Shown here: positions 53,068 to 56,196 of the stretch, one piece after another
How positions within the stretch are numbered: the first letter of the stretch is position 1
How the letters are laid out: each line of letters begins with the position of its first letter
Origin: Natronospirillum sp.
GTDB taxonomy: Bacteria; Pseudomonadota; Gammaproteobacteria; Pseudomonadales; Natronospirillaceae
Direction of reading: 5' to 3'
NCBI RefSeq assembly: GCF_022565775.1
Contig: NZ_JAIUMC010000001.1
Location: 124,001 to 188,000 of the forward strand
DNA length: 64,000 nucleotides
Program-made: the position numbers and the translations under genes
Notes under the pieces: model-generated
Databases searched by the model: none
What the model was told of the DNA's origin: nothing
The model's input: the letters and a program-made list of their open reading frames with translations, nothing else

Positions 53068-53831
53068 GCCAGTCTCATGATGTGCCTCAGTCCATCATCG
53101 ATCACCTGAAGGAACTGCGCACACGCTTGCTGCGCAGCGTCATTGTGGTGCTGGTTCTGTTCGGCATTCTGTACGTCTTTTCCAATGAACTCTACGGCAT
53201 TCTCTCGGCGCCGTTGCGCATTCTGGTCGAAGAGCAGGCCGGGCAAATTATCGCCACTGGTGTGGCGTCCCCCTTCCTGGTGCCGTTCAAGCTGAGTTTT
53301 GTTGCCGCGGTCATGCTCGGCATGCCATTCATTCTGTATCAGCTCTGGGCTTTCATCGCACCGGCTCTGTATCTGCATGAACGCCGGATGATGATGCCCT
53401 TGTTCATTTCCAGCGTCATCCTGTTCTACTGTGGTGTGCTGTTTACCTACTTTGTGGTCATGCCGCTGGTATTCGGTTTCTTCACCAGCGTCGGCCCGGA
53501 CATGGTGAACATCATGCCGGACATTGCGGCGATTCTGGATTTCAGTTTGAAGATGTTCTTTGCCTTCGGCCTGGCGTTCGAGATCCCCATCGCCACCGTG
53601 CTACTGATCTACAGTGGCATAACCACCGTTGAATCGCTGCGCCGCAAGCGCCCTTATATCTTTATCGGCTGCTTTGCCATCGGCATGCTGGTCACACCCC
53701 CCGATGTGTTCTCGCAGACCATACTGGCCGTGCCCATGTGGCTGCTGTTTGAACTGGGGCTGGTGTTCGCCAAGTGGGTCAAACCGCTGGATCGCGAAGA
53801 GGAAGCAGAGAAGGCAGAGGATAGAGAGTAG
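53064..53831 (+). CDS. tatC: Twin-arginine translocase subunit TatC
   Basis: This 255-residue six-helix inner-membrane protein has the TatC N-terminal IIDHLKELRTRLLRSV, the first periplasmic loop with SPFLVPFKLS, and MLVTPPDVFSQ near the fifth helix. TatC binds the twin-arginine signal peptide. It ends the operon. A weak GC hairpin with no T-run follows near 53843. Confidence 0.97.
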   Translation: MSQSHDVPQSIIDHLKELRTRLLRSVIVVLVLFGILYVFSNELYGILSAPLRILVEEQAGQIIATGVASPFLVPFKLSFVAAVMLGMPFILYQLWAFIAPALYLHERRMMMPLFISSVILFYCGVLFTYFVVMPLVFGFFTSVGPDMVNIMPDIAAILDFSLKMFFAFGLAFEIPIATVLLIYSGITTVESLRRKRPYIFIGCFAIGMLVTPPDVFSQTILAVPMWLLFELGLVFAKWVKPLDREEEAEKAEDRE

Positions 53832-53975
53832 ACTTTTGATTGGGGACCTGACGGCCCCATGCAGGTCTTACGCCCCCGGCCTACATGGAATCACTGTCCG
53901 ATCTGCAGGCCAGCAGCGTCAACCGAGCCATGCGCTGCAGGATCCCTTGTGCCCAATATCTTCGCGGCAGGTGAC

Positions 53976-54611
53976 TCAATACTGCATCGCCCATGTCGCA
54001 ATATCCTGTATGCTCAAGTCCGCAACGGAGCCGGAGCTGTCCAACTGGTAAAGTGGCTCGTCATCTAGGCCGACGATCATGGCCGCGCCTGTCCACTCCT
54101 CTTTGAAACGATAGACCGGCATATGGCGGATTCCCACGTAAGGGTCAGCCACTACCACGCGTCCGTTTTCGATACCCCGCCATACCACGAAATGCTCCGT
54201 TACCTGATTGGTAATCTGGACAATGGCCGGCGTATTGAATCTGATCAGATCTTCGAGCGAGGCCTGAATTCCAACCCCACGATATCCCTGCCATGCCAGA
54301 GCACCCTGCAGATCCAGAAACGTGAATCCTTCTGCTAGTACCACGTCGCGCGCGTCGGAATCCAGGCGATCCAGCATGTGATCGAGCACCTCCTGCTCCC
54401 GCAGGGATTCACCGTAATGATAGTTCAGGACAGTGGCTATCGTCGCGGCACCACAGGAGTAGTCGTGCTCCTGCATCACCACTGTTTCTTCACGGGCTGA
54501 CTGCCAGTCGTCAGAAGGTTCGGGCCATGGCGTAGCAGCACCAGGCCACGCAGTGGGAATGAGCAGTGCGGCCGGTACCAGCCAGGTTGTGAAAGCTTTC
54601 TTCAAGGTCAT
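53976..54611 (-). CDS. Periplasmic C39-like cysteine peptidase
   Basis: This 211-residue protein has a Sec signal peptide (hydrophobic core LVPAALLIPTAWPGAA). A single C39-like domain follows with Gln47 (oxyanion), Cys53 in QEHDYSCGAATIATVL, His140 in TEHFVVWRG and Asp156 in VADPYVG, a complete catalytic set. C39 peptidases usually sit on bacteriocin ABC exporters and cut after double-glycine leaders. A stand-alone exported form is known in the functional-amyloid protein FapD. It starts 4 bp after the beta-barrel gene, so both are cotranscribed, and it is next to a small exported protein with a leader-like motif, its likely substrate (inference). Confidence 0.85.
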   Translation of the reverse strand: MTLKKAFTTWLVPAALLIPTAWPGAATPWPEPSDDWQSAREETVVMQEHDYSCGAATIATVLNYHYGESLREQEVLDHMLDRLDSDARDVVLAEGFTFLDLQGALAWQGYRGVGIQASLEDLIRFNTPAIVQITNQVTEHFVVWRGIENGRVVVADPYVGIRHMPVYRFKEEWTGAAMIVGLDDEPLYQLDSSGSVADLSIQDIATWAMQY

Positions 54612-54615
54612 CGGC

Positions 54616-55524
54616 TCAGTCTCCAGTGAAGTCTATGCGAACCATGATCCCTGCAGCATGAGGGGCGGTCATGTCGAAACTGGCCATGGTGGTAATACTG
54701 GTATCCCGATTCCAAGATCGGGTCGTGCCCAGCGCCAGATTGTAGGACTCCGAGTCCGTTCCATCGACATCGTCCCCGTCCACGGCCTGCTCTGCCTGAT
54801 AGGTACCGGAAATGCGCGCATTCAGGCTCAGACGGTCACTGACCGAAAAGCTGGTACCGGAAGACACCTCATATCGTGTACCGGAAATAGTTCGGTCCGA
54901 CGCTGCTGTGGAGCGATGCGGCACCTCCACATCCAGGCGTACAAACTGATTGATGTAGTCATAGGTCCGCAGTGCACTGGCACCGGCACTATAGCGCCAG
55001 TAATCGAATCCGATACCGGCCTCTGCCTCACGGCGGGTTCCGGTAGGAGGCATCACTTCGCCGTGCAGAGTCACTGCCGGTCGTCTCGAGCCCTCGTCGA
55101 ATATCTGATAGGAGAGACCGGCAGCCAGGTCTGACAAACCGTTGTTGTAGTCTGTATCTCCAACCTGGCTTTCCCCCGATTCATCCGCAGCCAGTGTTGT
55201 CGTCTGACTGACAGAAGCACCAGCTCGCCCCTCCAGAGTCAGATTGTCGACCAGCCCGTAAGCCACATCGACGGTCGATCCAAGCAAACGAGTGCGCTCA
55301 GCACTCCGTTCCACAAACCCGTAGTCAAGGGCAACGCCGATACGCCATTCGCCGGGTCGATTGACCATTCCGGCAACGGACTCGCTGATCATGCCACCTT
55401 CATTTTCGGGGGCTTCTCCGACCGTAACCGGCGATTCATCGGCATGAACGATCGCAGCGGCCATAAGCACCAATACCAGTAGCAAAACGGACTGGGTAAA
55501 CATGCGACAAGACGGTTCTTTCAT
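54616..55524 (-). CDS. Outer-membrane beta-barrel protein
   Basis: This 302-residue protein has a signal peptide (VLLLVLVLMAAAIVHA) and a body of alternating amphipathic strands: GEWRIGVALDYGFVER, RLLGSTVDVAYGLVDNLTL, TLHGEVMPPTG, IGFDYWRYSAGAS and SITTMASFDMTAPHAAGIMV, ending in a strand with terminal FTGD. This is the pattern of a monomeric 12-strand-like barrel of the transporter/DUF (MetA-like) type. No substrate is indicated. The ATG at 55524 follows AAGGAGGAG. With the C39-like peptidase downstream and the small exported protein upstream, a role in secretion of that peptide is plausible, like FapF, but not shown. Confidence 0.78.
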   Translation of the reverse strand: MKEPSCRMFTQSVLLLVLVLMAAAIVHADESPVTVGEAPENEGGMISESVAGMVNRPGEWRIGVALDYGFVERSAERTRLLGSTVDVAYGLVDNLTLEGRAGASVSQTTTLAADESGESQVGDTDYNNGLSDLAAGLSYQIFDEGSRRPAVTLHGEVMPPTGTRREAEAGIGFDYWRYSAGASALRTYDYINQFVRLDVEVPHRSTAASDRTISGTRYEVSSGTSFSVSDRLSLNARISGTYQAEQAVDGDDVDGTDSESYNLALGTTRSWNRDTSITTMASFDMTAPHAAGIMVRIDFTGD

Positions 55525-55845
55525 GGGATTAAAACACTCCTCCTTCACACCCCGAGCCAACTGTCAGATGAACTTCGAGGCCAAACACAAAGGCCAACAC
55601 TTTGGCTACGCCCCAGCGTCCCCTGCAACAGGAACCGGGAATGATTCCTGTAACAGAGTGTAATGGCGTGAACCAGGTACCATTATCGCTGAATGGAATG
55701 GGACGGCTGGCTCTTAATTCCAATACAAGGCCGGCCTTTCGGTTGAGATAGTGCGAAGGAGATTGTTACGGTCTTCATGGCACCTGTCTTAATCGATTAA
55801 GAGAGGCAGTGTGCTATTCGACAAGTGATAAGAGGACAACAAGAA
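55525..55845. other. Divergent control region of the C39/barrel/small-protein locus
   Basis: These 321 bp separate the barrel gene and the small exported-protein gene and contain no further credible gene. They hold the perfect palindrome at 55787-55802. A loose promoter-like pair, TTGTTA (55763) and CTTAAT (55788), faces the small gene. Confidence 0.6.
55787..55802. promoter_or_regulatory. Perfect 16-bp palindrome, candidate operator
   Basis: TCTTAATCGATTAAGA is fully self-complementary. It lies 44 bp before the start codon of the small exported protein and overlaps the best -10 candidate, a position suited to a repressor or an activator binding as a dimer. Confidence 0.55.
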
Positions 55846-56142
55846 ATGAAGAAATTGACCCAAGCAATGATGATCGCTCTTATTTTGAGCATTATGTCTG
55901 CACCAGTAGTCGCGCAAACTGCCAGCGTCACATTGAACGACGTTGAAACGCAAATGGACGTCATGACCCAAGAGGAACTGGATGAAGTCCGTGCAGCAGG
56001 CCCACTGGGCATCGGCCTGGTGATCCTCGGTGTGGCTTCTGCTGTCAGCGTCGCTACGGGTGGCGGCATGATTGGACCCGGGCTGACTGACCCCGTGAAC
56101 CCCGTTGCGCCTCCGGGTCCGAACATTCACACGCCGTTCTGA
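55846..56142 (+). CDS. Small exported protein with double-glycine-leader-like segment
   Basis: This 98-residue protein has a Sec-type signal peptide (MKKLTQ, hydrophobic 7-22, cleavage near VVAQT). Residues 40-51, MTQEELDEVRAA, match the class II bacteriocin leader consensus position by position (Met -12, Thr -11, Glu -8, Leu -7, Val -4), with Ala-Ala in place of Gly-Gly. The remaining 47 residues begin with a Gly-rich hydrophobic run (GPLGIGLVILGVASAVS), then GGGMIGPG, and end Pro-rich (PVAPPGPNIHTPF). No cysteine is present. The neighbouring exported C39-like peptidase could cut after residue 51. The family is not recognised; a secreted peptide, a fibre subunit or a bacteriocin are all possible. 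Confidence 0.75.
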   Translation: MKKLTQAMMIALILSIMSAPVVAQTASVTLNDVETQMDVMTQEELDEVRAAGPLGIGLVILGVASAVSVATGGGMIGPGLTDPVNPVAPPGPNIHTPF

Positions 56143-56196
56143 TCCATGACTACGCGTCGGGCTGCACGGAAGCAGGTGGTCCCGGCGCCAGCCATT

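Follow-up and report, generated by a model that had tools for sequence, protein, structure and literature searches.

Organization of the locus

The window analysed here, a stretch of 64,000 nucleotides from Natronospirillum sp., contains three genes arranged around one intergenic region of 321 bp (55525-55845). The gene of a C39 peptidase (53976-54611, minus strand, 211 aa) and that of an outer-membrane barrel (54616-55524, minus strand, 302 aa counted from its ATG) form a pair which diverges from the gene of a small precursor peptide (55846-56142, plus strand, 98 aa from its ATG), and the ORF layout makes the intergenic region common to the pair and the precursor gene. The gene positions and the divergent layout around a single shared region, described in a first-pass annotation of this DNA, were found as stated. 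A Shine-Dalgarno-like AGAGGA (55831-55836, plus strand) is located 9 nt 5' of the precursor ATG. A simple promoter and terminator scan gave nothing beyond chance, and no σ70-like promoter was found by it within 55525-55845.

In a genome of the same genus (L238), tatC and malG are kept in the same arrangement, with 91% protein identity each. The DNA similarity between the window and L238 is lost after position 53823 and is back from 56197, and the tatC-malG interval of L238 (4528-6908) contains a gene of the sulfate permease family and a gene of the universal stress protein family in place of the trio. The break in similarity, together with the two unrelated genes found there in L238, defines the trio and its intergenic region as an accessory segment (53824-56196) without any other gene. 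Since the contents of the tatC-malG interval differ between genomes of one genus, the interval seems to be a site of gene exchange. The three genes form a unit and fill one accessory segment exactly.

The peptidase and the barrel

The peptidase matches Pfam PF03412 (E 1.9e-20, 73.5 bits, cut-off 22), and Gln47, Cys53 (codon 54453-54455, minus strand), His140 and Asp156, the residues proposed in the first-pass annotation, are invariant in two alignments of C39 proteins comprising 27 and 39 sequences. The structure model (mean pLDDT 82.5, with 135 of the 211 residues at pLDDT of at least 90) has its best solved matches in the ComA peptidase (3k8u), PCAT1 and a leader-bound double-glycine protease (6mpz). 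By Pfam cut-off, by the Gln, Cys, His and Asp residues and by fold, the protein is thus a member of peptidase family C39. Its best NCBIfam matches are FilB (91.6 bits, cut-off 475) and the FapD equivalog (78.7 bits, cut-off 330), both under the cut-off. Export of the peptidase, which had been claimed as well, agrees with a signal peptide predicted by eye at about residues 1-26; all signal peptide scores given below come from a home-made heuristic and not from SignalP.

The barrel protein matches PF13557 (29.8 bits, cut-off 22) and has a signal peptide predicted by eye at about residues 1-28. The top solved match of its structure model (mean pLDDT 86) is FapF (5o65, E 4.5e-15, TM 0.69), which assigns the FapF barrel fold to it, and the COG4313 channel 4rl8 also matches, ranked below FapF. 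The score with the NCBIfam FapF equivalog was 14.9 bits (cut-off 700). The long periplasmic coiled coil is missing: according to the model, approximately 30 mostly low-confidence residues without a long helix separate the signal peptide from the barrel. A tblastn search with the barrel against plasmids gave no match. The fold supports the claim that an outer-membrane barrel adjoins the peptidase; FapD and FapF, originally cited as the nearest precedent, are likewise supported as relatives of the pair.

A second C39 domain is present in the genome of the window on another contig (G000:C25:22996-23382), in a frame of 728 aa as in ABC-type exporters. C39 matches at E 0.001 or better were found in 4/22 genomes of the family; in the three besides that of the window, the frames containing them measure 690-704 aa, as in ABC-type exporters. 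With a limit of E 1e-12, C39 matches occur in 54/293 genomes of the order and in 45 of the 369 sampled genomes of the class.

The precursor and its composite leader

Class II microcins and bacteriocins carry a double-glycine leader whose consensus is read by C39 domains. In the 98-aa precursor, a predicted Sec signal peptide (residues 1-23, VVA|QT, 55846-55914, plus strand, heuristic score 4.6) is followed by a spacer and a double-glycine-type leader (residues 24-51, 55915-55998, plus strand). The core of this leader, MTQEELDEVRAA, occupies residues 40-51 and has Met at -12, Thr at -11, Glu at -8, Leu at -7, Val at -4 and Ala-Ala at -2/-1; 47 residues are left after it. These letters are as claimed in the first-pass annotation, and the leader scores lie beyond chance. 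With a profile built from named loci the leader reached 18.7 bits and surpassed all 4,040 shuffles; with a profile trained outside the clade of the window's C39 protein it scored 15.8 bits and ranked third of 83, the highest of the 112 controls being 14.6 bits. The segment can thus be classified as a double-glycine-type leader, although Ala-Ala at the cut site is atypical in comparison with Gly-Gly or Gly-Ala. The predicted cut position is uncertain by about one residue and could fall one residue further on.

The leader register predicts a mature peptide of 47 aa (55999-56139, plus strand) with a hydrophobic Gly-rich N-terminal half, a Pro-rich tail and a net charge of -1. The precursor had no match above cut-off in Pfam or NCBIfam. 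The NCBIfam models WGxxGxxG and JUQZ-1/BLB8 were considered for its identity and dropped (E 0.014-0.14, below cut-off). No homologue was detected in any of the other 292 genomes of the order (E up to 0.01), nor by a pattern scan of IMG/VR. Because the 98-aa protein has no detectable homologue in the 292 genomes, its analogues at other C39 loci were compared instead.

Stand-alone C39 loci and their leader-bearing neighbours

A wide C39 scan was built from five sequences; its pattern matched 382 stretches, 369 of which were confirmed and the best 80 kept. The hosts among these best 80 of 369 loci include Gamma-, Beta- and Alphaproteobacteria, Planctomycetes, Nitrospirae, Omnitrophota and Desulfobacterales. 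All collections together comprise 180 loci, including duplicates between collections (e.g. L037 and L188). Barrels were detected with an iterated barrel profile and counted within the fetched stretch. Among 140 non-redundant stand-alone C39 proteins, 126 are accompanied by a FapF-type barrel or barrel fragment; the C39 protein of the window falls into a clade of 41 members (tree support 0.98 among the 140 proteins), and the barrel is present in 37/41 cases within this clade and in 89/99 outside it. Some of the misses are near contig ends (e.g. L071 and L205). A heuristic signal score of 2.0 was reached by 118/140 C39 proteins, so export is predicted for these and not for each of the 140.

Leaders were searched for among Sec-type ORFs at most 4 kb from C39 genes. 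The controls were Sec-type ORFs in distant regions, drawn from some of the genomes which contain the C39 genes (at first 20 regions of 20 kb and a part of the window, later 40 regions). A motif of seven features, which had been widened after the sequences were inspected, was present with at least six features in 60/202 near ORFs versus 1/56 controls. A stricter consensus was present with at least five features in 51/202 versus 2/56. Sites for training the profiles were picked with the widened seven-feature motif. At 8 bits, 31 sites of named loci gave a profile which, when applied to the remaining loci, detected 59/202 near ORFs and none of the 56 controls. A profile from 61 sites outside the clade, tested inside it at the same threshold, detected 19/83 near ORFs versus 1/112 controls (p 3.1e-7). 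The idea that C39 loci contain analogues of the small protein holds in that the composite leader recurs in this held-out test, but not for about half of the clade: the outside-trained profile found a leader match at 21/42 clade loci, and the remaining 21 showed no substrate at the 8-bit threshold. Small-ORF calling, contig ends or a rule which is not general are possible causes. For all 180 loci, with training loci and duplicates counted, 106 had a match versus a single one among approximately 97 control stretches, each of 8.7 kb. With the named-loci profile at 6.5 bits or more, which is not a held-out test, 32/41 clade members had a predicted substrate, and in 23/41 the predicted mature part was at most 110 aa, some of these matches being doubtful. 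The leader scan has false positives, since an ORF scored as a substrate (L199, 3600-3929, no Pfam match) and the only scoring ORF of a gonococcal locus (L245) both resemble a barrel N-terminus.

A comparable leader was also found in known systems. In a true fap locus (L132), where FapC, FapD, FapE and FapF all exceed the NCBIfam cut-offs, FapE, encoded between fapD and fapF, has the leader IELKDSEMAELRGR/YVMP (17.3 bits), and FapC of this locus gave no score. The main amyloid subunits are without it: FapC of L132, L134 and L074 and FapB of L074 have 4, 4, 5 and 4 of the 7 features, respectively. A FilA-like protein (L073; FilA 127.9 bits, cut-off 220; DUF6160 over cut-off) has a leader ending in TGQ, and many Fil-type loci are without a leader-bearing neighbour in reach.

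Conserved leaders and variable cargo

In related precursors, conservation ends at or near the predicted cut. The mean identity of four precursors on two Acinetobacter plasmids was 0.82 over the 28 residues before the cut and 0.20 after it, and that of a Marinospirillum/Oceanospirillum pair was 0.86 and 0.21. In both groups, the switch falls directly at the predicted cut. For seven paralogues within a single genome (0.40 before and 0.09 after), the change is gradual apart from an invariant Gly at -2.

The plasmid precursors (L268, 429-755, 2322-2789 and 3236-3619; L267, 404-970) have a common leader and different cargo. One of the plasmids, of 6.3 kb, is typed as mobilizable and has a barrel fragment alone at the record edge. 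A 155-aa plasmid precursor is followed by a 117-aa ORF which might be its immunity gene. The gammaproteobacterial genome G346 contains seven stand-alone C39 cassettes (L095, L100, L104, L121, L124 and L127) whose Sec and leader regions are related and whose cargo differs, with lengths of 27-288 residues; by inspection, multi-membrane-span proteins near some of them could be immunity proteins. At seven loci (L064, L099, L101, L102, L107, L111 and L211), an ILWDE-type motif is common to small proteins which have a leader and a mature part of approximately 50 aa. Five other C39/barrel loci (L041, L043, L044, L045 and L055) include Asn/Ser/Asp-rich repeat proteins, of the NSDNS type in most, together with small leader-bearing neighbours, and look like a fibre-type system.

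Cargo in the clade of the window is often short and in some cases hydrophobic. The precursor of Pseudoteredinibacter isoporae (L198), a clade member, approached the lactobin A/cerein 7B class IIb model TIGR03949 (E 0.0011, 18.7 bits, cut-off 21.5). Of the ten clade-type small precursors, the remaining nine had no convincing match to an NCBIfam bacteriocin model, and nothing exceeded the cut-off when the longer cargo proteins were scanned with Pfam.

Discussion

We consider it probable that the trio is a self-contained export cassette. The 98-aa precursor would cross the inner membrane by the Sec pathway with the removal of residues 1-23. In the periplasm, the C39 peptidase would then recognise the second leader, situated within residues 24-51, in the way in which double-glycine leaders are recognised by cytosolic C39 domains, and would cut near Ala51/Gly52; the comparison of loci strongly supports this step. 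By analogy with FapF, the hydrophobic Gly-rich peptide of approximately 47 aa would finally leave the cell through the barrel. This mechanism, put forward in the first-pass annotation, is well supported, and the interpretation as a whole is partly supported. The function of the 47-aa peptide is its weakest step. At roughly even odds, the cargo is a membrane-acting peptide, bacteriocin-like or of the autolysis type, which is the most likely assignment; the alternative is a surface subunit or a signal. Several points count against the cassette: Ala-Ala at the cut site, the 21/42 clade loci without a substrate, the lack of an immunity gene in the cassette and of a homologue in the 292 genomes, the barrel without a coiled coil, the negative nap scan, the nine of ten precursors without a bacteriocin match and the widening of the motif after inspection.

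The same peptidase and barrel functions could serve a reduced Fap/Fil-like system, with the small protein as a fibre or adhesin subunit at the cell surface. The best NCBIfam matches of the peptidase, FilB and FapD, although below cut-off, point in this direction, as do the resemblance of the barrel to FapF and the comparable leaders of FapE and the FilA-like protein. However, the cassette has neither Asn/Gln-rich repeats nor any further gene, and the clade of the window often has short and partly hydrophobic cargo, so that we regard this explanation as unlikely. It is very improbable that the small secreted protein is unrelated to the peptidase and resembles a leader in this stretch only by chance, the peptidase cutting something else, e.g. 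the barrel N-terminus. The Ala-Ala at the cut site would fit such a chance match, there are no homologues for a direct check of conservation, and PMC5557850 contains the suggestion that FapD cleaves FapF. On the other hand, the leader scored above all shuffles and, in the held-out test, above the control maximum; moreover, the same arrangement occurs at many loci and the leader/cargo boundary falls at the predicted cut. Least credible of all is the reading of the barrel as a channel of the COG4313/MetA type which takes up hydrophobic molecules and adjoins the peptidase only by chance. PF13557 over cut-off and 4rl8 among the structural matches would agree with such a channel, but FapF outranks 4rl8, barrels and C39 proteins are co-located in 126/140 cases and the trio fills one accessory segment.

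Returning to the export cassette, we lean slightly towards a more general reading in which it exemplifies an unrecognised export route present in many phyla: a tandem of a Sec signal and a double-glycine-type leader, a periplasmic C39 cut and release through a FapF-type barrel. This route would serve both amyloid-type systems, with FapE as the FapD substrate, and a clade of mobile mini-cassettes for variable bacteriocin-like peptides. If this is true, microcins would have an export path without an ABC exporter, and stand-alone exported C39 peptidases would have a proposed rule for their targets. The rule would also provide a search key for secreted bacteriocin-like peptides which screens based on ABC exporters would miss.

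The nearest described systems show which parts of the arrangement are known. The original designation as an undescribed secretion system was too strong, since Fap (PMC5557850), the co-location of fapD and fapF (PMC6173800) and the nap island (PMC11798529) are in print. According to Rouse et al. (PMC5557850), FapD is required in the periplasm with its Cys; its target is called unclear there, and FapE is suspected. PMC6173800 describes the FapD substrate as yet to be determined and reports that homologues of fapD and fapF are co-located in five additional phyla. The sequence IELKDSEMAELRGR in FapE is a candidate FapD site, which makes the substrate question directly testable at one position. Like Fap, the trio combines a predicted periplasmic C39 peptidase of the type with a required Cys, the FapF barrel fold and a cargo with a predicted Sec signal. 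In contrast to Fap, with its amyloid subunits FapB/C, FapA and FapE and the FapF coiled coil, it encodes a single short peptide and lacks all of them, and no gene of an Asn/Gln-repeat amyloid subunit was found among the ORFs of the segment 53824-56196. The Fil "putative pilus system" (NCBIfam FilA/FilB/FilC) similarly unites a C39 protein with a FapF-type barrel, whereas the segment of the window is without large Fil-like neighbours and its peptidase does not reach the FilB cut-off.

The nap island of Neisseria gonorrhoeae (NapABC/NapP/NapF) is described in PMC11798529 as comprising a C39 peptidase, a channel related to FapF and small peptides which contain GG and resemble class II microcins; periplasmic cleavage is proposed, the peptides are described as cationic and napH, napR and napI are present. 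The terms Sec, signal peptide and SignalP are absent from the main text of that paper. The trio also combines a C39 peptidase, a FapF-like channel and a small peptide, but the peptide has a net charge of -1 and the segment has no counterparts of napR, napH and napI. One gonococcal C39 locus (L237) was set aside because it does not look like the nap island. Another (L245) resembles it in having a C39 gene, a barrel fragment and a low-GC core, and the same scan found no Sec and leader precursor ORF in this presumed nap island of one gonococcal record, so the composite leader is not universal.

With the class II microcins and bacteriocins exported by C39-ABC transporters, the trio shares the leader pattern, the predicted recognition by a C39 domain and a cargo with hydrophobic Gly-rich stretches. 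It differs from them in that the leader follows a Sec signal and the cassette is without an ABC exporter and an immunity gene: the segment 53824-56196 contains no C39-ABC exporter next to the precursor and no gene left over for immunity. In the open-access literature, we recognised no description of an exported C39 peptidase which cuts a double-glycine leader placed behind a Sec signal. As far as this literature goes, the composite Sec and double-glycine leader, the clade of mini-cassettes with putative bacteriocin-like cargo and the candidate FapD site predicted in FapE are new.
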